DNA from: Desulfovibrio sp. TomC | GTDB lineage: Bacteria; Desulfobacterota; Desulfovibrionia; Desulfovibrionales; Desulfovibrionaceae | Direction: 5' to 3' | Assembly: GCF_000801335.2 (NCBI RefSeq) | Contig: NZ_JSEH01000001.1 | Span: 62,001-126,000, forward strand | Length of the DNA: 64,000 bases | Part shown: positions 50,429-63,716 of the stretch, piece after piece | How positions within the stretch are numbered: position 1 is the stretch's first letter | Layout: each line of letters opens with the position of its first letter | The notes under the pieces: model-generated | Database searches by the model: none | Seen by the model: the letters and a program-made list of their open reading frames with translations, nothing else | Told to the model about the DNA's origin: nothing | Translations under genes and position numbers: made by a program

Positions 50429-52513
50429 TTAAGCGCCGAGCAGTTCCAACATCTTCGCCGCATCTGACGTCGGCGGCTGGCAGGAGCCGCCCCGACAGAC
50501 ATGGGCCGCGGCCCGTCCGTCCAGGGGCAGCTGGTAGCGGGTGAACGGGGCAATGCCAACGATGTCCGGCTCGACGTCGTCCGGGCGCAGCACCACTGCC
50601 GCTTCCGGCAGATAGCGTGAGAAGACGGCCCGGGCCAGGGCGTGGGTATCCGGGTTGTCCGGATCGCCGGCAATGGTCACTTCCGAGGCCTTGGCCAGCA
50701 GCTGGGACAGGCCGCACAAGAAGAAGGCGTGGCCCGAGGCATGGTCGGCCAGACGCGGGGTCATGGCCCGGGCCAGGGCGGCGGCGCTTTCCTTGAAGGC
50801 CGTATTGCCGGTCAGGCGGAAAAGCGTGGTCAGGACAAAGAAGGCCGCACTATTGCCCGAGGGAATGGCCGCGTCGTAAAAGATCTTTTGGCGAAGGAGC
50901 AACGCCTCGACGTCGTCTGGCGTCAGGTAAAAGCCTCCCTCCCCGGCGTCGGCAAAATGATCAAGCAGGGTCTGGGACAAGACGATTGCCTGACGCAGGT
51001 AACCGGTATCGAACACGGTCTGATAGAGTTCCGTCAGTCCCCAGGCCAGGAAGGCATAGTCGTCGAGCATCCCGGCAATGGCGGCCTCGCCGTCGCGCAG
51101 GCGGTGGAGCAAGCGGCCGCCCGGCAACCCGAGCTTGGCCACAATGCCGTCGGCGGCCTGCCTGGCCCGGGCGGCCAGCTCCTCGTCGTCAAAAGCCCGG
51201 GCCGCCTTGGCCAGGGCGGCGATCATGAGGCCGTTGACGTCTGTGAGCACTTTGTCGTCGCAAAGGGGCCGCACGCGCTTTTCCCGGGCCGCCAGTAAGA
51301 CCTGCCGGCAGCGTTCCAGACGTTCCAAGGCCTCGGCCCCAAGACCGGCCGTGGCGGCCACATTCCCGAGGGGATTGGGCTGAAAGAGAATATTGCCGCC
51401 GGTTTGTTCGCCCGTGGCCTCGTCGTGGCTGTTGCCGTCTTCGCTGGCCCCGTACGCAGCCATAAAAAAGGCCGCATCCTCGCCCAGAAGGGCGCGCAGT
51501 TCGGCCGCATTCCAAAGATAGAATTTCCCCTCGACCCCCTCGCTGTCGGCATCCTCGGCGCTCCAAAAGAGCCCGTCCGGACTGGTCAGGTCGCGGCGCA
51601 CATATTCGAAAATTTCCAGAGCGGTCTGTTTGTAGGACGGCTCGCCCGTGGCCAGAAACGCCTCGGTATAGGCCATGGCGGCCAAGGCCTGATCGTAGAG
51701 CATTTTTTCGAAATGCGGCAAAAACCAGTGTGCGTCGGTGGCATAGCGGTGCAGCCCAAAGCCCACCTGGTCGTAGACCCCGCCCCGGCGCATGGCGTCA
51801 AGGCTGGCCCGGACCATGGACAGGCAATCGGCTGCGCCGGTACGCCGGTATTCCCGCAGCAAAAAGAGCAAGTTGTGGGGAGCGGGAAATTTCGGCGCGC
51901 CGCCAAAGCCGCCGTTTTCGGCATCGAAAATCGCCGTCAACTGGGCCTTGCCCGACTCCAGTTCGCTCTCAGTTGGTTCGGCTGCCGCACTGCCGGCCGC
52001 CGCCATCTGGTCGCGCACGGCCTCAAGGATCTGGTCGGCGTTGCCAATGACCGCCTGCCGGTTGGTCTTCCAGGCCATATGTACCCGCTGGAGCAGTTCA
52101 CGCATGCCCGTGCGGCCGTAGCCCGACTCCTTGGGGAAATAGGTGCCGGCGAAAAAGGGCTGGCCGTCCGGGGTCAGAAAAACGGACAGCGGCCAGCCGC
52201 CCCGACCGGTCAGGGCCTGGCAAAAGGCCATGTAGAGCGAATCGAGGTCCGGGCGCTCCTCGCGGTCCACCTTGACGGCCACCACCGTGGCCCGCAGCAG
52301 GGCGGCGATGTCCTCGTCCTCAAAGGACTCGCGCTCCATGACATGGCACCAGTGGCAGGTGGAATAGCCGATAGAGAGAAAGACCGGCTTGTCTTCGCTT
52401 CGAGCCAGGGCAAAGGCCTCTTCCCCCCAAGGATGCCAGTCCACCGGGTTGTAGGCATGCTGCTGCAGGTACGGGCTTTTCTCGTGTATAAGGCGGTTTG
52501 GCGTACGGTCCAT
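50429..52513 (-). CDS. Thioredoxin-domain protein of the YyaL / SPATA20 family (DUF255)
   Basis: The 694-residue protein has an N-terminal thioredoxin-like domain (about residues 5-160) with the motif STCHWCHVM (Cys53, Cys56). It is followed by an alpha/alpha-barrel resembling N-acyl-glucosamine epimerases. The family signature [24 protein letters not shown] opens the protein. Its biochemical role is not established; a redox-linked sugar or protein function is often suggested. GGGAGGA precedes the ATG at 52513. Divergent from a DJ-1/PfpI gene. Confidence 0.92.
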
Positions 52514-52640
52514 GGCGTCCTCCCGGGAACCTGTGTACCAGCCGCCGGGCGTTTTGCAAGCCATTGACGCAAACTCCCTGTGCAGCATGCAGTTGCCATC
52601 GGCTGCCATCTGGGGCATAGCTTGGAGCAGACTCTGACAA

Positions 52641-52667
52641 TTGTGTCAAAGTAGTCACCCGACACAA
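52641..52667. promoter_or_regulatory. Inverted repeat TTGTGTC-N13-GACACAA before the DJ-1/PfpI gene
   Basis: The 7-base arms at 52641-52647 and 52661-52667 are perfect. The right arm adjoins the ribosome site AAGGAG of the gene at 52678. It could be an operator, or an RNA hairpin controlling translation. Confidence 0.4.
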
Positions 52668-52677
52668 GGAGAAGCCT

Positions 52678-53196
52678 ATGCAAGCCAAAAAAGCCCTGAT
52701 CATATCCGCCGACGCCTTTGAGGACAGCGAACTGCTCTACCCGCTCTACCGGCTGCGCGAAGCGGGATTTGTCGTGGACGTGGCCGCTCCGGCCGCCGGT
52801 CCCATCACCGGCAAGCACGGTTATGTTGTGACCGCCAACTTGGCCGTGGACGCCGTGGAATCGGCTGGTTCCTGCGGCTACACCCTGCTCGTCCTGCCCG
52901 GCGGCAAGGCCCCGGCCACCCTGCGCACCTTGCCCAAGGTCATCGACATCGTGACGGATTTTGCCTCATCCGGTATCCCCACCGCCGCCATCTGCCACGG
53001 TCCCCAGATCCTGGTCACGGCCCGGCTGCTCCGCGGCAAGCATGCCACCTGCTACACAACCGTGGCCGACGAACTCAAGGAAGCCGGGGCGCTCTATGAG
53101 GATGCCCCGGTGGTGGTGGACGGCCCGCTTGTCACCTCGCGCATCCCGGACGATCTGCCGGATTTTATGCGCGAAGTCATGAAAATGGTCGGTTAG
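52678..53196 (+). CDS. DJ-1/PfpI family protein
   Basis: The 172-residue alpha/beta protein has the nucleophile elbow AICHGPQ (Cys106, His107) and an acidic partner near residue 15 (AFEDSELL), as in PfpI/YhbO/DJ-1 members. These act as glyoxalase, deglycase-like, chaperone or protease; which applies here is not visible. AAGGAG precedes the start. Divergent from yyaL with an inverted repeat in between. Confidence 0.92.
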   Translation: MQAKKALIISADAFEDSELLYPLYRLREAGFVVDVAAPAAGPITGKHGYVVTANLAVDAVESAGSCGYTLLVLPGGKAPATLRTLPKVIDIVTDFASSGIPTAAICHGPQILVTARLLRGKHATCYTTVADELKEAGALYEDAPVVVDGPLVTSRIPDDLPDFMREVMKMVG

Positions 53197-53275
53197 GCGG
53201 CTCTCATCGGTTGCTTCCGGTCTCCGGGCACGGTACTGGCTGCCGTGTCCCGGAAGCCGGAGGTCTGCCCACGCC

Positions 53276-54205
53276 ATGTCCCACAGTGTTTTCCTATCCC
53301 GCCTTGACCGCTATGATGATCCCGGCCTTTCTGCCGCCGTGGCCGCCCTGCTCGACCGGGCCGGCTGCCCGGCTGGCCCGGGCAGCCGGGTGCTGGTCAA
53401 ACCCAATCTGGTCGCCCCGCGCAATACCGCCCTGTCGTGCACCAGCCCGGCCGTGGTGCGGGCCATTTGCCTGTTCCTGCTTGACCGGGGCGCGCAGGTG
53501 ACCGTGGCCGACTCGCCGGCCTTTGGCACCGGGCGCATCGTTGCCCGGCTGGCCGGCCTCACCGAGGCCCTGGCCGACCTGCCCGTGGCCGTGGCCAGCC
53601 TGGACACCCCCCGCGCCGTCTCCTTGTCCGGCGGCGGCAGCATCGGCGTGTCCCGACTGGCCCTTGAGGCCGACCACATCATCAACGCCCCCCGGCTCAA
53701 ATGCCATGACCAGATGGGCCTGACCTTGGCGGTCAAAAACTTCTTCGGTTGCGTCTGCGGCTTTCGCAAATCCCTGGCCCACCAGACGCTTGGCAAGGAT
53801 TACAGCCACTTTGCCGGCATGATCCTGGACGTGCTGGCCGCCCTGCCGCCGTCCACCTCGCTGTTGGACGGGGTGGTGGCCATGCACAAGGCCGGCCCGG
53901 TCGGCGGCGAACCCTTTGCCCTGGGGCTTCTCGGCGCAGCGGCCAATCCCGTGGCCCTGGACACGGCCCTCTACACCCGCCTGGGCCTTGCCCCGGACCG
54001 GATACCCCTGTGGCGGGAGGCCAGGAAACGCGGCTTGCCCGGGAGCGATGCCGGTACAATCGACTACCCGCTGCACACGCCCGACGATTTTGCCATGGAA
54101 GGCTTTGTGGTCAATCCGGCCCTTGCCCCTCTGGCCTTTGAAACCGGCCGGTTTCTCCGGGGCCGGTGGCGAAGCCTGCTGGTCACCCTGGGCCGGGGGC
54201 GTTGA
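53276..54205 (+). CDS. DUF362 domain protein
   Basis: The 309-residue protein is of the DUF362 family, often found joined to ferredoxin domains in anaerobes. Visible signatures are VLVKPNLVAPRNT (residues 40-50), DSPAFGTG, INAPRLKCHDQMGLTLAVKNFFGCV and a C-terminal half without a ferredoxin. Function is unknown. It lies 31 bases upstream of hypF on the same strand, so a link to hydrogenase maturation is possible but unproven. Confidence 0.85.
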   Translation: MSHSVFLSRLDRYDDPGLSAAVAALLDRAGCPAGPGSRVLVKPNLVAPRNTALSCTSPAVVRAICLFLLDRGAQVTVADSPAFGTGRIVARLAGLTEALADLPVAVASLDTPRAVSLSGGGSIGVSRLALEADHIINAPRLKCHDQMGLTLAVKNFFGCVCGFRKSLAHQTLGKDYSHFAGMILDVLAALPPSTSLLDGVVAMHKAGPVGGEPFALGLLGAAANPVALDTALYTRLGLAPDRIPLWREARKRGLPGSDAGTIDYPLHTPDDFAMEGFVVNPALAPLAFETGRFLRGRWRSLLVTLGRGR

Positions 54206-54236
54206 CACGGCGGCAAAGCCCGATACCTTGCCGGAC

Positions 54237-56567
54237 ATGCCAAATGTCATACGACGGCGTCATGTGGTGGCCGGTCAGGTCCAGGGGGTGGGCTTTCGCC
54301 CCTTTGTCTATCGTCTTGCCCGGGAACTCGGCCTGTCCGGCTGGGTGCAGAACACGCCTGAGGGCGTGGTCATTGAGGTCGAGGGGCCGGCCGGGGCGGT
54401 AACGGCCTTCGGTCAGCGCCTGCCGGTTGAAATACCCCCGCTGGCCAGACTCCTGTCCCATACGATGACCGAGACGGCGGCCTGCCAGGACGACGGCTTT
54501 CACATCCTGGCCAGCGCCCCGGGCGCCGGCCACGAGGTGCTGATCAGCCCGGACACGGCCACCTGCCCGGACTGTCTGGCCGATATGGCCGCTCCGGCCG
54601 GCCGCCGCTTCCGCTATCCCTTCACCAACTGCACCAACTGCGGCCCGCGTTATACCATCACCCGCCGCGTCCCCTACGACCGGGCGACCACGTCCATGGC
54701 CTGTTTTCCCCTATGTCCGGCCTGCGCCGCCGAGTACGGCGACCCGGCCGATCGGCGCTTCCATGCCCAACCCAATGCCTGTGTGGCTTGCGGACCGGCT
54801 TTGTGGCTGGTCGACCGGCATGGCGCGGTCCTGGCCCGGGAGGACGCGGCCATACCGGCCCTGGCCGGGGCCTTGGCCCAGGGGAAGATCGCCGCAGTCA
54901 AGGGCCTGGGCGGCTTTCATCTGGTCTGTAGCGCCGCCGACAGGGCCGCTGTGGCCGAACTGCGCCGCCGCAAGCACCGTCCGACCAAGGCCCTGGCCGT
55001 CATGGTGGCAGACCTGGCCACGGCCGCGCGTCTTGGGCGGGTAAAGAGCACGGCCAGGGAGTTGCTCACCGGGACGGTGCGGCCCATCTGCCTGCTGCCG
55101 GCCCATCCGGACAATGGCCTGGCTCCGGAGATTGCCCCGGATGTCGGGGAAATCGGCGTCATGCTGCCCTATACGCCATTGCACCATATCCTCCTGGCCG
55201 ATTATGCCGCCGCCCTTGGCCCGGACAGCCTGCCGGCTCTGGTCATGACCTCGGGCAATCTCGGCGGCGATCCCATTTGCCTCGGCAACCGCGAAGCGCT
55301 GTCCCGGCTGGCTGGTCTGGCCGACCTCTGGCTGCTTCATACCCGGGATATTCTGGTGCGCACCGATGACTCGGTGGTGCGGCCTTTGGAGGCGGCCGAG
55401 GCGCAAAGCGTCGGCGCTCCGGCCATGTTCCTGCGCCGGGCGCGGGGGTATGTCCCCTCCCCGGTGGCCCTTGCCCGATCCGGCCCGCCGGTGGTGGGCC
55501 TGGGGCCGATGCTCAAGGCCACTGTGTGCCTGACCAAGGGGGATCAGGCCTTTGTCAGCCAGCATATCGGCGATCTGGAAAACCTTAAAACCATGGAATT
55601 TTATCAGGAAACGCTGGAGCATCTGCTCGACGTGCTCGGTGTTGCGCCTGAGTGTTGCGTGGCCGATCTCCATCCGGATTATCCGAGCACCCAATTCGCT
55701 CTGGAACAGGACCGCTGGCCGGTCGTGCGCCTGCAGCACCATGTGGCCCACATTCACGCCGTCCTGGCCGAGCACCGGATGCGTGAACCGGTCCTTGGCT
55801 TGGCTTTGGACGGCACCGGTCTTGGCGACGACGGAACGCTGTGGGGCGGCGAGTGCCTGCTGGTCGATCCGACCCGGCTCACCCACCAGCGTCTGGCTCA
55901 TTTTGCGCCCATGGCCCTGCCCGGCGGCGATGCAGCCGTGCGCGAACCCTGGCGCATCGCCCAGGCTTGTCTCTTCGCCCTGGGCCAGGATATGCAGACC
56001 GGGGCGCACTGGCCATGGCTTGCAGGGTACGGCGGGGCCTCACGGCTGGTCGGGCAGATGCTGCGCCAGGGGCTGAACTGTCCGACGACCACCAGCTGCG
56101 GCCGGCTGTTTGATGCCGTGGCCGCCGTCATCGGCCTGTGTCCGGCTATCGACTATGAGGGACAAGCGGCTATCCGGCTCGAATGTATCCAGGATATGGC
56201 GGAGACCCGCCCCTATGCCTGCCCGATTGACTTGACGGTCGATCCGGCCAGGCTGGACACCCTGGCCCTGTTTGCCCAGGTGGCCGAAGATGCCGAACGC
56301 GGCGTTGCCGTCGGACGCATAGCCCGTCGCTTCCATCTGGGACTCATTTCCGGCCTTGCAGCCCTGGCCCGGGCCATGGCCAAGGCCACCGGCGTATACA
56401 CGGTGGCGGTAAGCGGCGGGGTGCTGCAAAATCGAACCGTGGCCGTTTCGTTGCCTGCAGCCCTTCGGGAAAACGGACTTTTTCCGCTCTCCCACCTGCG
56501 AATGCCGTCCAACGACGGCTGCATCAGCCTTGGACAGGCGGCCTACGGTTCCATGAAAGTTCGATAG
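54237..56567 (+). CDS. hypF: Carbamoyltransferase HypF, [NiFe]-hydrogenase maturation
   Basis: Makes the thiocarboxamide on HypE that becomes the cyanide ligands of [NiFe]-hydrogenase. The 776-residue product has the full domain order. First, acylphosphatase (GQVQGVGFRPF with Arg21 and Asn39). Then zinc-finger-like Cys motifs (CPDC at 110-113, CTNC, CPLCPAC, CVAC) and a YrdC-like domain (KHRPTKALAVM). Last is a Kae1-like carbamoyltransferase domain with HHVAH (His501, 502, 505). Length is typical. No hypC-E or hydrogenase genes are adjacent. The nickel importer in this window would supply the same enzymes. Followed by a long AT-rich gap. Confidence 0.97.
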   Translation: MPNVIRRRHVVAGQVQGVGFRPFVYRLARELGLSGWVQNTPEGVVIEVEGPAGAVTAFGQRLPVEIPPLARLLSHTMTETAACQDDGFHILASAPGAGHEVLISPDTATCPDCLADMAAPAGRRFRYPFTNCTNCGPRYTITRRVPYDRATTSMACFPLCPACAAEYGDPADRRFHAQPNACVACGPALWLVDRHGAVLAREDAAIPALAGALAQGKIAAVKGLGGFHLVCSAADRAAVAELRRRKHRPTKALAVMVADLATAARLGRVKSTARELLTGTVRPICLLPAHPDNGLAPEIAPDVGEIGVMLPYTPLHHILLADYAAALGPDSLPALVMTSGNLGGDPICLGNREALSRLAGLADLWLLHTRDILVRTDDSVVRPLEAAEAQSVGAPAMFLRRARGYVPSPVALARSGPPVVGLGPMLKATVCLTKGDQAFVSQHIGDLENLKTMEFYQETLEHLLDVLGVAPECCVADLHPDYPSTQFALEQDRWPVVRLQHHVAHIHAVLAEHRMREPVLGLALDGTGLGDDGTLWGGECLLVDPTRLTHQRLAHFAPMALPGGDAAVREPWRIAQACLFALGQDMQTGAHWPWLAGYGGASRLVGQMLRQGLNCPTTTSCGRLFDAVAAVIGLCPAIDYEGQAAIRLECIQDMAETRPYACPIDLTVDPARLDTLALFAQVAEDAERGVAVGRIARRFHLGLISGLAALARAMAKATGVYTVAVSGGVLQNRTVAVSLPAALRENGLFPLSHLRMPSNDGCISLGQAAYGSMKVR

Positions 56568-56695
56568 ATAAACGCAATAGAATTGGCAAAATGGAGGGTA
56601 TATTAAATTAGATTAAAATAGTATAATATCGTTGACAGGCCTGATGGCGGCGGGTAGGCATCTTCGCGCGTGGCATTTTCCTTCTCTCTAGCGCC

Positions 56696-56710
56696 TGCTG
56701 TCCGACAGCA
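56696..56710. promoter_or_regulatory. 15-base palindrome TGCTGTC-C-GACAGCA
   Basis: The perfect 7-base arms flank a single central C, about 60 bases downstream of the TTGACA at 56632. This is the size and shape of a repressor operator; nothing shows which protein would bind it. Confidence 0.35.
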
Positions 56711-56992
56711 CACGTTGGTCTCAAATAGGGCAACGGTGCGACAATCTGTACATATCCTGGTCAGCCAGTCCCGTTACCGGACAGACTAGGTAGCTTCTTG
56801 AAGGGAGACAACACTACTAACAAAAATGTTAATTTTAGCACAAGTCGTTTCTTCTCGCTGTCTTGAAGGTGCTTGCGTTGCATCAGATAGTACAACTTGG
56901 GATGTTCCAGCTTTTAACTATAGTATAGAGATTTATGTGAACCATTTCCAATGGAATGACATTGGGTATCACATTGTGTTGTCCTAAAATTC

Positions 56993-57021
56993 TTGACATC
57001 CTTCTAAAATATGCGTATTTT
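56993..57021 (+). promoter_or_regulatory. Sigma-70 promoter with overlapping inverted repeat, upstream of the first CI-like gene
   Basis: TTGACA (56993-56998), 17-base spacer, TATTTT (57016-57021). The inverted repeat AAAATA (57006-57011) TGCG TATTTT (57016-57021) covers the -10 box, so a bound repressor would block it. The leader to the start at 57271 would be about 240 bases. Confidence 0.55.
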
Positions 57022-57270
57022 TGATAAATAGAATACGTTGTCTTGCCAGTTGTTTCTCGTTAACTGCATGGATAAATGCTTAAAAACATTTCCATCCGAC
57101 CTTTCCCGTGAAGCAAGTGTTTGTTGTATTGCTTATGTAATAATAATTATATGCAATTGCAATTCACTGGATGGCGACTTGGCGGCATTTAGGGCCATCT
57201 CAAAGGACGACGATCACCCCTTCTTGCTCGGGTTACTATTCCCGAATCAATTGATCGCGTTGGAGGCGAC

Positions 57271-57972
57271 ATGAAAAACGAAGAAACGACTCAGGAGATG
57301 ATCAATCGCTTTGAAGAAGCGTTTGATCGCATCAAGAAATCGACCGGAATGCGGACCCAGGTTGAGATCGCAAAATTGCTCGATATCCGCCAATCTAGTA
57401 TTTCCGATGCCAAGCGTCGCCAGTCCATTCCCGATAGCTGGCTCATCAAACTGTATCAGATCTACAACCTCAATCCCAACTGGGTCCTCGACGGCGAAGC
57501 TCCCCAGTTCCTCGGTGAACAGCGCAGCGGCGCCTTTCTGGTCAAGGAACCAGGCGAGGCCTATGGCCGCAAGCCCCGACATTACCAGATGCCGGTGTGC
57601 TCCATGGCCCGGTCCGAAGGGACTGACGGTCCCTGGCAGGAGCAGGCAGTCGACTCCCTGAGCGTCCCGGAGCAGTTCCATCGCCCTTCTCTTGTCGTTG
57701 TTCGCATGGAGGAAAGCGATATGGAGCCTGTTATCCAACGAGGCGCCTATGTCGGCATCGACAAAGACCGCAAGACCATCCGATCCGGTGCGCTGTACGC
57801 CCTGGACATGCCCATGGAAGGCCTTGTCATCAAGAAGATCCTGCACGATGCCGAAAATGCCCGCCTTATTTTGCGTTCAGAAAATCCGAACTTCACCGAC
57901 CAGATTCTACCGGCCGAAGGTTCTGCCGAACGCATTGTCGGTCGGATCGTTTGGGTCATACAGGCCATTTAA
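57271..57972 (+). CDS. CI-like regulator 1: HTH plus S24-type domain with Ser replaced by Asp
   Basis: The 233-residue phage-CI-repressor-like protein has an N-terminal helix-turn-helix (about residues 29-54, TQVEIAKLLDIRQSSISDAK). A linker leads to a C-terminal LexA/S24-type domain (about 100-233). The catalytic motif that normally reads SMEP is D-MEP here: Asp150 stands at the serine position, though Lys188 is kept. Self-cleavage is therefore unlikely, and repression could be relieved only by a partner. A promoter with an overlapping inverted repeat lies upstream and a terminator follows. First of four tandem paralogs. Confidence 0.85.
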   Translation: MKNEETTQEMINRFEEAFDRIKKSTGMRTQVEIAKLLDIRQSSISDAKRRQSIPDSWLIKLYQIYNLNPNWVLDGEAPQFLGEQRSGAFLVKEPGEAYGRKPRHYQMPVCSMARSEGTDGPWQEQAVDSLSVPEQFHRPSLVVVRMEESDMEPVIQRGAYVGIDKDRKTIRSGALYALDMPMEGLVIKKILHDAENARLILRSENPNFTDQILPAEGSAERIVGRIVWVIQAI

Positions 57973-58005
57973 GCGTTCCAGAGCAATGTCTTTCATCTTG
58001 CTGTA

Positions 58006-58039
58006 AAAGGCGCGCGCCAGACTCCAGGTGCGCGCCTTT
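58006..58039 (+). terminator. Terminator after CI-like regulator 1
   Basis: The perfect 10-base arms AAAGGCGCGC (58006-58015) and GCGCGCCTTT (58030-58039) are followed by CTGTCTTGTCT. It separates regulator 1 from regulator 2, so the genes are probably expressed independently. Confidence 0.75.
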
Positions 58040-58215
58040 CTGTCTTGTCTCAAAAGGATACCCCGCCACACGCAGTCTCTTTTCCCCTGCACCTTCGCAG
58101 GGGATGGATTGACGAAGCCGCTTATTGATGATACGTAATTATTCAAGCACTATAGATAAATACAAACAAATAGACAAACCGGTTGACTGCCTATACTGCC
58201 CGCCCAGGAGGCTGC

Positions 58216-58887
58216 GTGAAGCCAGATACCTTCGAAGACGCATACGCCCGAATTCAGACAGCCACTCGAGCCAGGACCCAGACTGAAATCGCCACCATTC
58301 TTGGCATCAAGCAATCCAGCATCTCCGACGCCAAAAAGAAGAATACCATCCCCGACGGCTGGTTAGTCACCCTGTACCGCACCTTTGCCTTGGAGCCGGA
58401 CTGGATTCTCTACGGCCAGATGCCCCCTTCCCGTCGCGAAGGAGCCACCCTGCCTTCTGGAGTTCGCGAAAGCGCCGGCGGCTACGCCTCCCCTCCGAGC
58501 CGGGTCACGGTCTATACCATGGCCTGCACTGACCCGGAACACGGCAACTGGACACGCGAAGCGCAGGAAACCATTCCCCTGCTCGAATCGCTCAACCGGC
58601 CCAACCTGGTCGTCGTCAAGATGGACAACTGCAGCATGGAGCCCGTCATCCGTCGCAGTGCGTATGTTGGCCTGGACTGCGATGACATCCGCCTTCGAAG
58701 CGGCGAAATATATGCCCTGGATGTTCCCGGCGAAGGCCTGGTCATCAAGCGCGTCATCCGGGATCTTGAAAAACAGCGTCTGGCCATGCTGGCCGAAAAT
58801 CCCGCTCACCAGAGCCTGTATCTGCCGCTGGACAACCCCGGTGTTGCCACTGTCGGCAAGGCCGTCTGGGTTATCCAGGAATTGTAA
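58216..58887 (+). CDS. CI-like regulator 2: HTH plus S24-type domain with Ser/Lys dyad intact
   Basis: The 223-residue paralog of regulator 1 has a helix-turn-helix near residues 19-43 (RTQTEIATILGIKQSSISDAK) and an S24-type domain with NCSMEP (Ser140) and VIK (Lys178). It keeps the Ser/Lys dyad of LexA/CI self-cleaving repressors. It is the only copy with both a full DNA-binding domain and an intact catalytic pair. The GTG at 58216 is chosen because a perfect AGGAGG lies 4 bases upstream; a TTG at 58183 is less likely. The protein ends VGKAVWVIQEL like the others. Confidence 0.85.
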   Translation: MKPDTFEDAYARIQTATRARTQTEIATILGIKQSSISDAKKKNTIPDGWLVTLYRTFALEPDWILYGQMPPSRREGATLPSGVRESAGGYASPPSRVTVYTMACTDPEHGNWTREAQETIPLLESLNRPNLVVVKMDNCSMEPVIRRSAYVGLDCDDIRLRSGEIYALDVPGEGLVIKRVIRDLEKQRLAMLAENPAHQSLYLPLDNPGVATVGKAVWVIQEL

Positions 58888-58993
58888 ACGCCGCCCCCGC
58901 AGCTGCCTGCGCAACCATCCGGTCAGCCTCACCCCGGGGTTTTCCGATAGGCTGGTTTTGGCAGGTTTTGCGACAGGCAGGGTGATTGTTTTA

Positions 58994-59009
58994 TAAATAA
59001 ATTTATTTA
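58994..59009. promoter_or_regulatory. 16-base perfect palindrome TAAATAAATTTATTTA
   Basis: It lies in an AT-rich gap about 100 bases before regulator 3, next to a TATATATAG tract that could be a -10 box. Its size and position suggest an operator for one of the CI-like proteins. A purely AT sequence can be palindromic by chance. Confidence 0.45.
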
Positions 59010-59109
59010 CAATTATATATAGACGTCGTACTCCCTGCACTGCATCCGCACCCGTTGACGATTCCGCGTCAGGGGAGATTCATACGCACCAGGCCCAGGG
59101 ACACGACTC

Positions 59110-59547
59110 ATGTCTACATCGCTTTCGCCCAACCCTTGCCCAGATTCCACTACCGACGGACACCGCGTCCTCGTCCATGCCACCAACCGGACTGACCCGG
59201 TCTCCGGAGCTTGGTTGCCAAGCCCCTTGGAAGTCGTCACAATCCCTGATCGACTGTTTTTTCCCGGACTCTTGGTGGTCAGGATGGAAGACGCCAGCAT
59301 GGAACCCGTCATCCGTCGCCACGCCTTGGTCGGCATCGACCGGGCGCGTGCCACGCTCGATGGCGGCCAACTCTATGCCCTGGATATTGTGCCGGAAGGA
59401 CTTGTCCTTATCCGGGTCATGGTCGACACGGGAGCGCAACGCTATGTGTTGCAGCCTGAAAACGGCCAGCCGCCCCGGCACTATCCCTTTGCCTCGTCCG
59501 GTCTGACCAGCCTTGGTCGCGTCGTCTGGGTGATCCAGGAACTGTAA
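59110..59547 (+). CDS. CI-like regulator 3: S24-type domain without HTH and without Lys
   Basis: The 145-residue paralog lacks the DNA-binding domain. Its N-terminus (about 50 residues) is unlike the HTH of copies 1 and 2. The S24-type domain has DASMEP with Ser63 in place, but the Lys position (101) is Ile in GLVLIRV. It could still dimerise through the conserved C-terminal fold and so titrate or poison the full-length copies. It ends LGRVVWVIQEL. The ATG at 59110 has AGGG about 10 bases upstream. Confidence 0.8.
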   Translation: MSTSLSPNPCPDSTTDGHRVLVHATNRTDPVSGAWLPSPLEVVTIPDRLFFPGLLVVRMEDASMEPVIRRHALVGIDRARATLDGGQLYALDIVPEGLVLIRVMVDTGAQRYVLQPENGQPPRHYPFASSGLTSLGRVVWVIQEL

Positions 59548-59606
59548 CGACAGGGCTGGCGGCGGTCACACCCCCTGGAGCAAGGCCCTAGGACGCGAGA
59601 GAGCCC

Positions 59607-60218
59607 ATGGGACAGGCAGGCGCATCACGAATCATCAAGCGGCTGGGGCAGGCTCTGTCAGCTCAGGGCGCCAATGCCGCTGCCCGCAGGCTGGCCGGGG
59701 CCCAGCCCCTTTTGCAATTTCACGATGGCGATGCCATCCGGTCCCTGGTCCTTCGCCATTGTCGGGAATACAGCCTGGATCCGGCCTGGGTGCTGCTTGG
59801 CCGTGGCAGTCCACCGACCTCTCCTCCCGAACTGACGCCAGTGTTTGCCATGTCGCGCATTCATCCGGTCACCGGACGCTGGCAGATCACCGAGATCGAA
59901 CGCATTGCCCTGGCCCCCGGCATCCTCGCCTCCGGCCGGTTCGTAACCCGCATGGAGGGAACGGCCCTGGAACCGCGCATCCACCACGGGGCCTATCTGG
60001 TGGTGGACACCCGGGAAGTGCGGGTGCCTGAGACGCATGAGACGCAGGCCTTTTTTGCCGTGGCGTTGCGCGGCGAAGGTCTGGTGGTGCGGCTGGCCCA
60101 TTGGGACAGTGAAGCCGGGCGCGTGGTGCTCTCCGAACTCAGGCCCCGGAGTTTGCCGCTCTTTGCGCCCAGAGATGGGGTGGTCGGTCAGGTGGTCTGG
60201 GTGGCCCAAACCATGTGA
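59607..60218 (+). CDS. CI-like regulator 4: degenerate N-terminal domain, Ser and Lys both lost
   Basis: The 203-residue paralog has an N-terminus (residues 1-65) that keeps the tail of the CI domain (REYSLDPAWVLLGRGSPP, compare NLNPNWVLDGEAP in copy 1). The helix-turn-helix is not recognisable. In the S24-type domain the motif is GTALEP (Ala120 at the Ser position) and the Lys is Arg162 (GLVVRL). It is inactive as a protease by these substitutions. It ends VGQVVWVAQTM. It starts 59 bases after copy 3, so those two may be co-transcribed. The stop is 6 bases from the convergent rhomboid gene. Confidence 0.8.
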   Translation: MGQAGASRIIKRLGQALSAQGANAAARRLAGAQPLLQFHDGDAIRSLVLRHCREYSLDPAWVLLGRGSPPTSPPELTPVFAMSRIHPVTGRWQITEIERIALAPGILASGRFVTRMEGTALEPRIHHGAYLVVDTREVRVPETHETQAFFAVALRGEGLVVRLAHWDSEAGRVVLSELRPRSLPLFAPRDGVVGQVVWVAQTM

Positions 60219-60224
60219 ACCGGT

Positions 60225-60947
60225 CTATTCCCGGTCGTAACGCCGAACCGACGGGTCGAAACAAAACTTGCATCCCGGGGGCAAAAACACCCGGACAAGG
60301 GCCAGCCCGGTGGCAAAGCCGCCCACATGGGCCCAAAAGGCCACACTGGCCGCCTGCCCCTCGGAGACTGTTCCGGCCAATCCGGAAAGAAGCTGCATCA
60401 AAAACCACACGCCCAGAAAAACCACGGCCGGCAGTTCCACGATCCAGGGAATGATGATGATGGGAATAAGCGTCACCACCCGGGCTTTGGGAAACAGTCG
60501 GAAATAGCCGCCCATGACCCCGGCGATGGCCCCGGACGCCCCAATGACCGGCATCAGGGCATCCGGGTTGAACAGCACATGGGCCAGGGCTGCGCCAAGC
60601 CCGCACAGCAGATAGAAAGCCACGAACCGCAAGGCCCCCAGGGCTTCCTCCACATTGTCGGCAAATATCCACAGCACCCACATGTTGAGCAGATAGTGCA
60701 GCCAGCCGCCGTGCAGAAACATGTACGTCAGAAACGCTGTCCAGCCGCCTTTCGGGTAACCGATATGGGCGGCCAAGACCGGATTGGTGAACCGGACCGG
60801 CACCACGCCGTAGAGGTGCATGAACTCAAAGAGCACGCGGTCCGGCAGCAGTTGCTGGTAAAGAAAGGTTACCGTGCACAGCCCGATCAGGGTCCAGGTC
60901 ACCAGCGGCGGCCGGGTGCTTGGCACATTGTCTCGAAGCGGAATCAT
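60225..60947 (-). CDS. Rhomboid family intramembrane serine protease
   Basis: The 240-residue membrane protease has about six helices, the catalytic Ser138 in GASGAIAG and His207 in AHVGGFATG, and the early motif LHGGWLHYLLNMW. It cleaves membrane-spanning substrates in the bilayer. The start at 60947 overlaps the RluD-CoaE gene by 4 bases, so translation is coupled. The natural substrate is unknown. Confidence 0.92.
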   Translation of the reverse strand: MIPLRDNVPSTRPPLVTWTLIGLCTVTFLYQQLLPDRVLFEFMHLYGVVPVRFTNPVLAAHIGYPKGGWTAFLTYMFLHGGWLHYLLNMWVLWIFADNVEEALGALRFVAFYLLCGLGAALAHVLFNPDALMPVIGASGAIAGVMGGYFRLFPKARVVTLIPIIIIPWIVELPAVVFLGVWFLMQLLSGLAGTVSEGQAASVAFWAHVGGFATGLALVRVFLPPGCKFCFDPSVRRYDRE

Positions 60948-62599
60948 GGCCTCGGTATCCCCTCCCCCCCCTCCGGAGCATAGCCGGCGGCAGCCAGCGC
61001 AGCCAGTCGCCGCCGCATGTCCTGGCGTCGCAGGTCGGCCAGGGTGGCGAGCACCCGGTCTCCGGCCGAAGCTAAGTCCCCGGCGGTGCCGGCGTTGTCC
61101 ACCACGAACCGGCACTTGGCCAGTTTCTTGTCTTGCGGCCATTGCCAGCCGTCCATACGGCTGGTCAGTTCCGCAGACCAGCCGCGTCCGGCTGCCAGCC
61201 GCGCGGCCCGGACCGCATCGTCGCAACGAACGCCGACAACCATGTCCACCATCTCGCCCGGCAGCCAGCCAGCTTCAAAAAGCAGCGGCACTTCGGCAAA
61301 AATTGCCCGCTTTCCGGCCTGGGCAGAGGTAAAACCAGTCAGCTCGCCCTTGACCAGCGGATGGATCAGTTCGCACACCTCGCGGCGAAACCGGTCGCTT
61401 TCGGCCATGTTGCGGCCGAGCCAGATTTTGTCCACCGACCCATCAGCCGCAAGGGCCTGTTCGCCATAGCGCCGCGACAGCATATGCGCGCCGTCGCCCC
61501 CCGGGGCATAGAGCTGCGCCACGGCCGCATCGGCTGAAAAAATCGGGAAGCCGGCCGCAGCGAAATGATCAAGCAAGGTGGATTTGCCGCAGCCCGGCAT
61601 GCCCACCAGGCCCACGCGTTGGCAGCGTCGGCCAAGGATGAGCGGCAGCCGCCAGAAATCCCGGGGCGGCGGCAGGCGAAAAGCCATAGCCTCGCCGGTG
61701 GCCGGATGGGTAAAGGACAACTTCCAGGCATGGAGCATCTGCCGGGTGGCCAGTCTGGCCACGGCCCCGCCGCGTCGGGTCCATTCGGCCTGCTGGCGCG
61801 CGCCGTAGACCACGTCGCCAACAATGGGGTGGCCCATGGAGGCCATATGGACGCGGATCTGGTGGGTGCGGCCGGTGGCGATGGCCACTTCCAGCAGGCT
61901 GGCCGAGGCGTCCGGCGCGCTCCAGACCAGTTTCCAGGAACTGCTGGCCGGACGTCCGCCCTTTTCCACCACGGCCATGCGGGTCGGATGCTTGGGATCA
62001 CGGCCGATGGGCAGCTCGATGGTCCCTTCGGGCCGGGCCGGGCGGCCGTGGACCAGAGCCAGATAGGTCTTGGACACGCGCCTGGCGGCAAAGTCGGCGG
62101 CCAGGGCCAACCGGGCGGATTCGGTGAGAGCCACCAGCAGCAGGCCGCTGGTATCCTTGTCCAGGCGGTGGACAATGCCGGGACGGTGTCCGGCCATGCG
62201 GCGCATGTCCGGAAAATGGTGCAGCAGCCGGTTGACCAGGGTGCCGTCGGGCAGTCCCGGGGCCGGGTGGATGGTCAGGCCGGGCGGTTTGTCCAAAATG
62301 AGCAGGTGTTCGTCGTGGTAGAGTACGCCAAGGGCTCCGTCCTCGGCCACCGCTTCGCTTGGGGTTGGCGACAAGGTCAGAGTCAGGGTTTCGCCGCCGC
62401 GCAGCTTCTGGCCCGGCTTGCGGCAGACCGTGCCGTCAATGGCGGCCAGCCCGGCCTCGATGGCCGTGCGAATCTTGCCCCGGGAAATGTCTTCAGCCGC
62501 CAGCCGGGCGCTCCAGAACACGTCCAGGCGGGCTCCAGGGCCATCGGCAGCGGCATCATATACAGCCTCAAAGGGCGTCGTGGCTTCCGTATCGTTCAT
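60944..62599 (-). CDS. RluD-type pseudouridine synthase fused to dephospho-CoA kinase
   Basis: The 551-residue bifunctional protein has an N-terminal S4-like segment and RluA/RluD synthase (about residues 20-320) with catalytic Asp147 in HRLDKDTSG. This part modifies uridines in rRNA or tRNA. From about residue 325 a CoaE-like P-loop kinase begins (GMPGCGKST, Lys339) that would phosphorylate dephospho-CoA in the last step of CoA synthesis. Both active-site motifs are intact. The frame is continuous with no sign of a frameshift, so this is a true fusion, joined to a downstream rhomboid gene. Confidence 0.88.
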   Translation of the reverse strand: MNDTEATTPFEAVYDAAADGPGARLDVFWSARLAAEDISRGKIRTAIEAGLAAIDGTVCRKPGQKLRGGETLTLTLSPTPSEAVAEDGALGVLYHDEHLLILDKPPGLTIHPAPGLPDGTLVNRLLHHFPDMRRMAGHRPGIVHRLDKDTSGLLLVALTESARLALAADFAARRVSKTYLALVHGRPARPEGTIELPIGRDPKHPTRMAVVEKGGRPASSSWKLVWSAPDASASLLEVAIATGRTHQIRVHMASMGHPIVGDVVYGARQQAEWTRRGGAVARLATRQMLHAWKLSFTHPATGEAMAFRLPPPRDFWRLPLILGRRCQRVGLVGMPGCGKSTLLDHFAAAGFPIFSADAAVAQLYAPGGDGAHMLSRRYGEQALAADGSVDKIWLGRNMAESDRFRREVCELIHPLVKGELTGFTSAQAGKRAIFAEVPLLFEAGWLPGEMVDMVVGVRCDDAVRAARLAAGRGWSAELTSRMDGWQWPQDKKLAKCRFVVDNAGTAGDLASAGDRVLATLADLRRQDMRRRLAALAAAGYAPEGGEGIPRP

Positions 62600-62726
62600 G
62601 GTACCTCAGTAGTGTATTGCATGGGCCAATTGGCCCGTCGGGTCAAGGTGCAAGGACGGAAGCGTTTGATGAAGTCCCGTCCGTGGGCTATGCTCGGGCC
62701 ACACTAACCGCCCCAAAGGAGCGCCC

Positions 62727-63716
62727 ATGCAGGCCGTCATCTTCGAAAATGGTTCCGCCCGCCTGTCGGACAGGCCCGAACCGACGCTTGGCCCGGACGA
62801 TGTGCTGATCGAGGTGCATCTGGCCGGCATCTGCAACACCGATCTGGAACTGTTGCGCGGATACATGGGTTTTGCCGGCATCCCGGGCCACGAGTTCGTC
62901 GGCCGGGTCGTTGCCGCCCCGGGAAGCCCCCAGCTGCTTGGCCGGCGGGTGGCGGCCGACATCAATATCGGCTGCGGCGTGTGCCCGGTGTGCCGCAAAG
63001 CCGATGCCCGGCACTGCCCCAACCGTACGACGCTTGGCATTGCCGGCAAGGACGGGGCCTTTGCCCAGTTCCTGGCCATGCCGGCCCACACCATCCAGCT
63101 TGTGCCGGACAACGTGTCCGATGCCCAGGCCGTGTTTCTGGAGCCGCTGGCTGCCGCCCTGGAGCCGGGACAGCAACTCCACCTGACCGCCCGACAATCC
63201 GTGCTGGTCCTTGGCGACGGCAAGCTCGGCATCCTGACGGCCTGCGCCCTGCGCCGGCTTGTGCCGGACATTGTCCTGGCCGGCAAGCACGAAAGCAAGC
63301 TGGCCATTGCTGCTGTCCAGGGCGTGGCCGTGCGCCAGGGGAGCGACCCCGAGGCCATCGTGGCCGGCCTTCGCCGGGAGTTTGGCCTCTTTGACGTGGT
63401 CATCGAGGCCACCGGTCGGCCCCAGGGGCTGGAAACGGCCCTGGCCCTGGTGCGGCCGGAAGGGACCGTTGTCCTTAAAACCACCACCGTTGCCCCGACT
63501 ACCCTGAACATGGCCAAGGTGGTGGTGGACGAAATCAGTCTGGTCGGCTCCCGTTGCGGTGATCTGCGCCTGGCCGCCGCCTATCTCAAAGACGGGCTGG
63601 TCGATGTCCTGCCGCTGGTCGAGGCGGCCTACCCGTTCACAGCAGTTGCCGAGGCCCTGGACCATGCCGCCCGGGCCGGAGCCATGAAGGTACTGCTGGA
63701 TTTCCGTTCGTTGTAG
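62727..63716 (+). CDS. Zinc-dependent alcohol dehydrogenase (MDR superfamily)
   Basis: The 329-residue medium-chain dehydrogenase has catalytic zinc ligands Cys36 (ICNTD) and His55/Glu56 (GHEF), and a structural zinc site CGVCPVCRKADARHC. It has a degenerate Rossmann loop VLVLGDGKLGIL (about residue 155). Such enzymes act on alcohols, polyols or threonine; the substrate is not evident. AAAGGAGC lies just before the ATG. Divergent from the RluD-CoaE gene. Confidence 0.88.
   Translation: MQAVIFENGSARLSDRPEPTLGPDDVLIEVHLAGICNTDLELLRGYMGFAGIPGHEFVGRVVAAPGSPQLLGRRVAADINIGCGVCPVCRKADARHCPNRTTLGIAGKDGAFAQFLAMPAHTIQLVPDNVSDAQAVFLEPLAAALEPGQQLHLTARQSVLVLGDGKLGILTACALRRLVPDIVLAGKHESKLAIAAVQGVAVRQGSDPEAIVAGLRREFGLFDVVIEATGRPQGLETALALVRPEGTVVLKTTTVAPTTLNMAKVVVDEISLVGSRCGDLRLAAAYLKDGLVDVLPLVEAAYPFTAVAEALDHAARAGAMKVLLDFRSL

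Follow-up and report, generated by a model that had tools for sequence, protein, structure and literature searches.

Proteins with an S24 domain are usually taken for self-cleaving switches that respond to SOS. The regulators described here have a domain of this fold and are encoded by a cluster of four paralogous genes (copies 1 to 4) in a 64,000-nucleotide stretch of Desulfovibrio sp. TomC (contig NZ_JSEH01000001.1; genome size 5.07 Mb), called the window below. Control of a DNA-binding protein by a relative of its own is known from SinR/SinI of Bacillus and from the Id proteins: a truncated or DNA-blind relative disarms the DNA-binding partner via mixed dimers. In phage 186 (CI/Tum) and in the Gifsy phages (GfoR/GtgR), it is a separate antirepressor and not cleavage that disarms the repressor, and these antirepressors are small phage proteins, some of them under LexA (accessible part of PMC3121763). 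The Caulobacter XRE paralogs RtrA, RtrB, CdxA and CdxB and the protein TgrL of phage phiCbK bind DNA and form heteromers (accessible part of PMC10688885). The window's genome and the 13 relatives compared with it very probably belong to the genus Solidesulfovibrio; in the open PubMed Central (PMC) literature we found no study of this regulator or of the Solidesulfovibrio cluster, and the accessible part of PMC10102598 held no treatment of the regulator that we could find.

The four genes lie on one strand:

57271..57972, forward strand: copy 1, 233 amino acids (aa), helix-turn-helix (HTH) and S24-fold domain; Asp150 where the nucleophile would be, Lys188 kept
58216..58887, forward strand: copy 2, 223 aa, HTH and S24-fold domain; Ser140/Lys178, but Ala103-Cys104 at the place of the cleavage dipeptide
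59110..59547, forward strand: copy 3, 145 aa, S24-fold domain alone; Ser63, Ile at the Lys place
59607..60218, forward strand: copy 4, 203 aa, N-terminal domain without recognition helix and S24-fold domain; catalytic positions occupied by Ala and Arg

For copy 2 the best start is the GTG at 58216, which is preceded by AGGAGG and gives the numbering Ser140/Lys178; the open reading frame list also holds an upstream start, TTG at 58183. Frames, homology and residues (Asp/Lys, Ser/Lys, Ser/Ile, Ala/Arg) all agree with an earlier note, made from the letters of the window, that had described four same-strand paralogs at this place. Their shared C-terminal end, which that note had given as VGxxVWVxQ, is present in all four copies; its first residue is not always Val, the motif being [VL]GxxVWVxQ with the Leu variant in copy 3. 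We propose that copies 1 and 2 act as repressors that cannot be cleaved and that copies 3 and 4 modulate them via heterodimerisation, a reading to which we give an even chance.

When copy 2 is used as query against its own genome, copy 1 is found with E=2e-55, copy 3 with 6e-24 and copy 4 with 1e-10. Copies 1 to 3 are above the cut-off of Pfam Peptidase_S24 and copy 4 is below it (15.2 versus 23.3 bits); for the Pfam Phage_CI_repr HTH, copy 1 is above the cut-off (25 versus 22 bits) and copy 2 just below (20 versus 22). The NCBIfam search gave weak matches alone, and copy 2 had no significant hit when solved structures were searched by sequence (434 Cro was best, with E 0.058), so a comparison of folds was needed. 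The predicted fold of copy 1 matches Thermotoga maritima LexA with Z 15.8, and that of copy 4 matches the LexA C-terminal domain of the same species with Z 13.3 (2.8 A, 119 residues); the first Foldseek match of copy 1 is 186 CI, with Z 12.4 for the C-terminal domain, lower than the LexA rows. The LexA/CI C-terminal fold is found in the predicted models of copies 1 and 4, and Pfam S24 finds it in copies 1 to 3.

A Phage_CI_repr-type HTH with a recognition helix is present in copies 1 and 2 and absent from copies 3 and 4. The AlphaFold model of copy 1 has five helices, with the HTH formed by helices 30-36 and 41-50 (pLDDT 85, pTM 0.56; the model is poor over residues 84-97); that of copy 4 has four, and the place of the recognition helix is predicted to be empty (pLDDT 89.5, pTM 0.67). 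The recognition helix reads RQSSISDAKRR in all 14 copies 1 and KQSSISDAKKK in all 14 copies 2, and QSSISDAKRR is kept in 20 of 21 orthologs beyond the genus (the exception is G016). In stretches placed by hand, the net charge at the recognition helix is -3 to +1 for copy 4 and +2 or +3 for copies 1 and 2. The most likely reading of the models is that DNA binding was lost by two routes: the domain is absent in copy 3, and copy 4 has lost the recognition helix.

The residues of self-cleavage are incomplete in all four copies. At the nucleophile place of the alignment, Asp is found in all 14 copies 1, Ser (8), Gly (5) or Ala (1) in the 14 copies 2, Gly (4) or Ser (3) in the seven copies 3 and Ala (8) or Cys (1) in the nine copies 4. 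At the Lys place, all 28 copies 1 and 2 have Lys, all nine copies 4 have Arg, and copy 3 has Lys (4), Ile (2) or Arg (1). The pair of Ser and Lys is thus confined to eight copies 2, that of the window included (0/14, 0/7 and 0/9 for copies 1, 3 and 4). No Ala/Cys-Gly dipeptide is present at the aligned cleavage place of any of the 44 genus copies, and none of them combines Ser, Lys and dipeptide.

A comparison set from beyond the genus was drawn from the 80 best among 125 matches: these gave 78 loci, and removal of eight genus loci left 70, some of which share a genome; L118 was omitted from one alignment (A4) because of a stop in its reading and kept in the residue counts. Ser is found in 22 of the 70 loci, Lys in 23, Arg at the Lys place in 47 and the dipeptide in 29; all three elements coincide in a single locus (L091). 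As a rough control, a separate paralog in the window's genome (contig C10) has Ala-Gly, Ser and Lys in an alignment read by eye. The catalytic positions hence vary across the whole family, and catalytic loss is therefore family-wide and not stepwise inside the cluster: the stepwise loss of protease residues that had been read from the four copies is, judged by these residues, a sample of family-wide drift. Self-cleavage seems to have been lost widely across this regulator family, and the Ala-Gly retained in 29 of the 70 outside relatives may be a fossil.

The likely ancestor of the cluster is a Desulfovibrionaceae regulator, often beside hflK-hflC. The group profile (E <= 1e-5; more distant HTH-S24 proteins are counted too) matches in 192 of 199 sampled Desulfovibrionaceae genomes, and copy 1 is the nearest of the four to this family-wide regulator. 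Among the 70 outside loci, the regulator lies at most 1.2 kb downstream of hflC in 44, and in 21 the next 3.5 kb include panB; both counts are lower bounds because contigs are short. The order hflK-hflC-regulator, sometimes then panB, recurs across the family (L052-L064, L082-L150). The window's genome has its hflC on contig C15; the homology search with copy 2 had no hit to the regulator there. Most loci beyond the genus have one regulator gene; tandem extra copies are also found in L082 and G067. Fundidesulfovibrio agrisoli and one metagenome-assembled genome (MAG) have hypF, two regulators and then panB (L079, L080), which by gene order is an intermediate arrangement. Two irregular frames were seen among the MAGs: an ortholog with a stop codon inside the matched reading (L118:6001-6720) and an hypF matched in two pieces, perhaps by a frameshift (L080:3182-5481).

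Within the genus, copies 1 and 2 are both present in all 14 genomes searched and adjacent in 13, in agreement with the expectation of paralogs kept at one place. The block between hypF and a rhomboid gene is intact in 13 genomes and split in one, G006: hypF and copy 1 are on one contig and copies 2, 3 and 4 with the rhomboid gene on another (L037, L038). The breaks lie inside the contigs, which suggests that a rearrangement split the cluster. The third slot, behind copy 2, is variable: it holds copies 3 and 4 in three genomes (G000, G013, G006), an S24-only gene alone in four (G005, G007, G008, G012) and copy 4 alone in six (G001, G002, G003, G004, G009, G011), and it is empty in G010. Copy 3 is thus found in seven genomes, copy 4 in nine and the full quartet in three, and a reading of the quartet as a fixed unit is not supported. 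Within the genus, copies 1 and 2 do not stand singly in unrelated places, as they would in a mere decaying duplication; outside, the regulator does mostly stand alone. In the tree, copies 1 (97/99), 2 (100/98) and 4 (100/100) form one group each and copy 3 has one or two origins; most simply, the copies are older than the diversification of the genus and copies 3 and 4 were lost differentially.

Candidate control elements were found upstream of the genes:

56993..57021, forward strand: possible promoter of copy 1, TTGACA-N17-TATTTT, found by eye some 250 nt before the start codon
58109..58137, forward strand: probable promoter of copy 2, TTGACG invariant in 14 of 14 aligned upstream regions
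58151..58157, forward strand: TATAGAT element upstream of copy 2, candidate operator or promoter part
59006..59034, forward strand: probable promoter of the pair of copies 3 and 4; an identical TTTACA-N17-TA precedes the gene behind copy 2, be it copy 3 or copy 4

Upstream of copy 2, CGTCAA is present in 14 of 14 genomes versus 1.3 expected from shuffles, a contrast inflated by the kinship of the sequences, and TATAGA in 13 of 14 versus 0.5. CTTGAC is found upstream of copy 1 in 12 of 14 versus 3.1 expected, so the support for a promoter of copy 1 is weak. TTTACA-N17-TA precedes the gene behind copy 2 in all 13 genomes that have such a gene (ATTTACA 13/13 versus 0.5 expected, again among related sequences). 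Since this promoter-like element stands before copy 3 and the gap between copies 3 and 4 is 59 bp, the two are probably co-transcribed from one promoter. Operators were searched for as k-mers and palindromic dyads upstream of copy 1, copy 2, copies 3/4 and the viral genes described below, and as k-mers also in the family set; the yield was promoter-like words, Shine-Dalgarno sites and TATAGA. A palindrome that overlaps the promoter, ATTTA-N4-TAAAT, is present in six of 13 third-slot regions.

Taken together, the cluster would be a chromosomal Solidesulfovibrio system that arose when a Desulfovibrionaceae regulator was duplicated; this regulator combines an HTH of CI type with the S24 fold of LexA and CI and, judged by its residues, would no longer self-cleave. 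Copies 1 and 2, with nearly identical recognition helices, would be DNA-binding repressors with probably overlapping operators and, as their fold suggests, would bind DNA as dimers held by the C-terminal domain. Copies 3 and 4 keep this domain, which mediates dimerisation in the LexA/CI fold, and tuning by heterodimers is therefore plausible; they would most likely be antirepressors derived from paralogs. A mixed dimer with copy 1 or 2 would have a single HTH, bind poorly and release the operator; if copies 3 and 4 have their own promoter, the cell could adjust the proportions of the copies. Antirepression by mixed dimers would also explain most simply why DNA-blind copies have persisted next to conserved ones.

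Constraint was estimated as omega (dN/dS; NG86 method) for 12 chosen species pairs, seven of which had copy 3 and seven copy 4; in some pairs, of copy 1 among others, dS exceeds 1 and is unreliable or saturated. Copies 1 and 2 are under strong purifying selection (omega 0.04-0.12 and 0.03-0.15), in most pairs stronger than the flanking genes hypF (0.14-0.27) and coaE (0.11-0.35). Values are higher for copy 3 (0.25-0.60) and copy 4 (0.19-0.47). With 150 codon bootstraps of eight pairs of copies 3 or 4, the range of omega stays below 1 in seven, and the frames are open in all 16 cases of copy 3 or 4. Decayed coding with a high dN/dS, which the earlier note would have counted against a working system, is thus not seen outright: the range of 0.19-0.60 for copies 3 and 4 is above that of copies 1 and 2, yet below 1.

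Several results weigh against antirepression by mixed dimers. Copy 3 is absent from seven of the 14 genomes and copy 4 from five, with G010 lacking both. In G006 copy 1 and copies 2 to 4 are on different contigs, which shows that the genes need not be linked. Copies 3 and 4 change rapidly, with omega up to 0.60, and copy 3 of the pair G005-G007, the bootstrap exception, ranges from 0.30 to 1.47. The k-mer and dyad searches found no operator common to all sets. Finally, the tail is the best conserved part of copy 4 (0.87 versus 0.65-0.82 for other parts), but in copies 1 and 2 it is no better kept than the remaining S24 part (0.77 versus 0.78 and 0.81 versus 0.81), and tail conservation is therefore weak evidence for dimers.

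The main rival is a slow decay of copies 3 and 4 as duplicates whose constraint has been relaxed, so that only copies 1 and 2 would matter. The omega of copies 3 and 4, several times that of copies 1 and 2, and the presence of all four copies in only three genomes speak for slow decay; the 16 open frames, the bootstrap ranges, the promoter-like element in 13 of 13 genomes and the single group formed by copy 4 across the genus speak against it. Open frames, omega and promoter-like element thus speak for use of copies 3 and 4, as far as sequences can tell, while their speed and absences keep decay a serious rival, which we consider possible but somewhat unlikely.

Copies 3 and 4 could also have acquired functions that have nothing to do with copies 1 and 2; the N-terminal domain of copy 4, for example, could have been remodelled to bind another protein. 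The stem branch of copy 4 is very long (3.0 changes per column) and both its domains are constrained among species (for the first 60 codons, omega is 0.08-0.44 in four pairs, the lowest value having a saturated dS), as such a change would predict. Since both copies, where present, lie directly behind copy 2 and have kept the S24-fold domain, we regard such a new function as quite unlikely.

A RecA-cleavable copy 2 with non-cleavable partners, as the earlier note had proposed, is very improbable: Ser and Lys are indeed both present in copy 2 of the window and of seven further genomes, but Ala103-Cys104 takes the place of Ala/Cys-Gly, the dipeptide is found in none of the 14 copies 2, and six of them have replaced Ser by Gly or Ala.

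Equally improbable is a recent prophage remnant, an immunity region left behind when the phage genes were lost. The HTH is indeed common to prophage and viral proteins; against this reading stand the constant place between hypF and the rhomboid gene throughout the genus (intact in 13 of 14 genomes and split in one), the match to the group profile in 192 of 199 genomes of the family and the frequent adjacency to hflC (44 of 70 loci).

The phage relatives are short proteins on viral contigs or prophage-like loci (L204-L212, L151-L192) that have the same HTH and other C-terminal parts; of the 25 viewed among 42 viral loci, only L151 has an S24 part. The viral scan used QSSISDAK as pattern and is biased towards helix sharing; as this pattern is the helix itself, sharing of the recognition helix is judged from the nine loci found by BLAST. 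These were hand-picked under a display filter that required QSSIS, QSSVS or QASIS; the helix reads QSSISDAKRR in seven of them and QSSVSDAK[KR]R in the other two. Frames with viral relatives number 31 (G004), 15, 8, 5, 5, 4 and 3 per locus, counted over six frames with shadows included, and in L208 and L209 only the HTH protein itself has viral relatives; phage context is clear for some of the nine loci (G004) and uneven overall. The HTH-only proteins are the complement of the S24-only copy 3. A wider scenario, which we think unlikely, is that a host-owned LexA/CI-fold regulator, present in almost the whole family, swapped self-cleavage for chromosomal antirepressors made from its own copies in one genus, copy 3 being reduced to the dimer domain and copy 4 having a dismantled HTH, and that host and phage may compete for common operators and mixed dimers, since prophages in related hosts have the complementary HTH-only half.

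Of the seven neighbour genes tested (50429-63713), DUF362 and hypF are among those upstream, and the rhomboid gene and an RluD-CoaE fusion among those downstream; none of the seven is a phage gene, as had been noted before. The fusion is a single frame on the reverse strand (60944-62599) that joins an RluD-type pseudouridine synthase to the dephospho-CoA kinase CoaE, and long matches to this joined frame adjoin the cluster across the genus. Between hypF and copy 1 lies an AT-rich non-coding spacer of 703 bp (56568-57270; GC 0.42 versus 0.62 for the window). Judged by tblastn borders, hypF and copy 1 are some 650-900 bp apart in each of the 14 genomes, and the last 420 bases align poorly among them. 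The idea of an RNA leader was dropped: there is no Rfam match at gathering score in 14 kb around the cluster, and the folding of the copy 1 leader hardly beats shuffles (z -1.66).

The full set of cleavage residues is missing in 69 of 70 outside loci and in all 44 genus copies of a group that is nearly family-wide; the signal of this regulator is therefore probably other than SOS self-cleavage, and such genes should not be annotated as SOS repressors. The species that keep or lack the DNA-blind copies form a natural experiment on how a repressor could give rise to its own antirepressors.

With LexA and lambda CI the Solidesulfovibrio proteins have the two-domain plan and the fold of the C-terminal domain in common; they differ in that the dipeptide is absent (0/44), the nucleophile is variable and two copies lack DNA binding. 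With 186 CI and the Gifsy repressors, as the accessible text describes them, they would share that the repressor is disarmed by a separate protein and not by cleavage; the difference is that the antirepressor candidates are here chromosomal paralogs of the repressor. The Solidesulfovibrio cluster is a genus-level radiation of HTH paralogs with phage relatives and one member kept in the wider group, as are, from what is accessible of their description, the Caulobacter XRE proteins with TgrL; it differs by the S24-fold domain and by two paralogs without recognition helix, and heteromers, measured in Caulobacter, are here inferred. SinR/SinI and the Id proteins have other domains, and their mixed dimers would have a counterpart in Solidesulfovibrio. 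Repressors disarmed without cleavage and radiations of HTH paralogs are thus already known; what sets this cluster apart is that the antirepressor candidates are paralogs of their presumed target.

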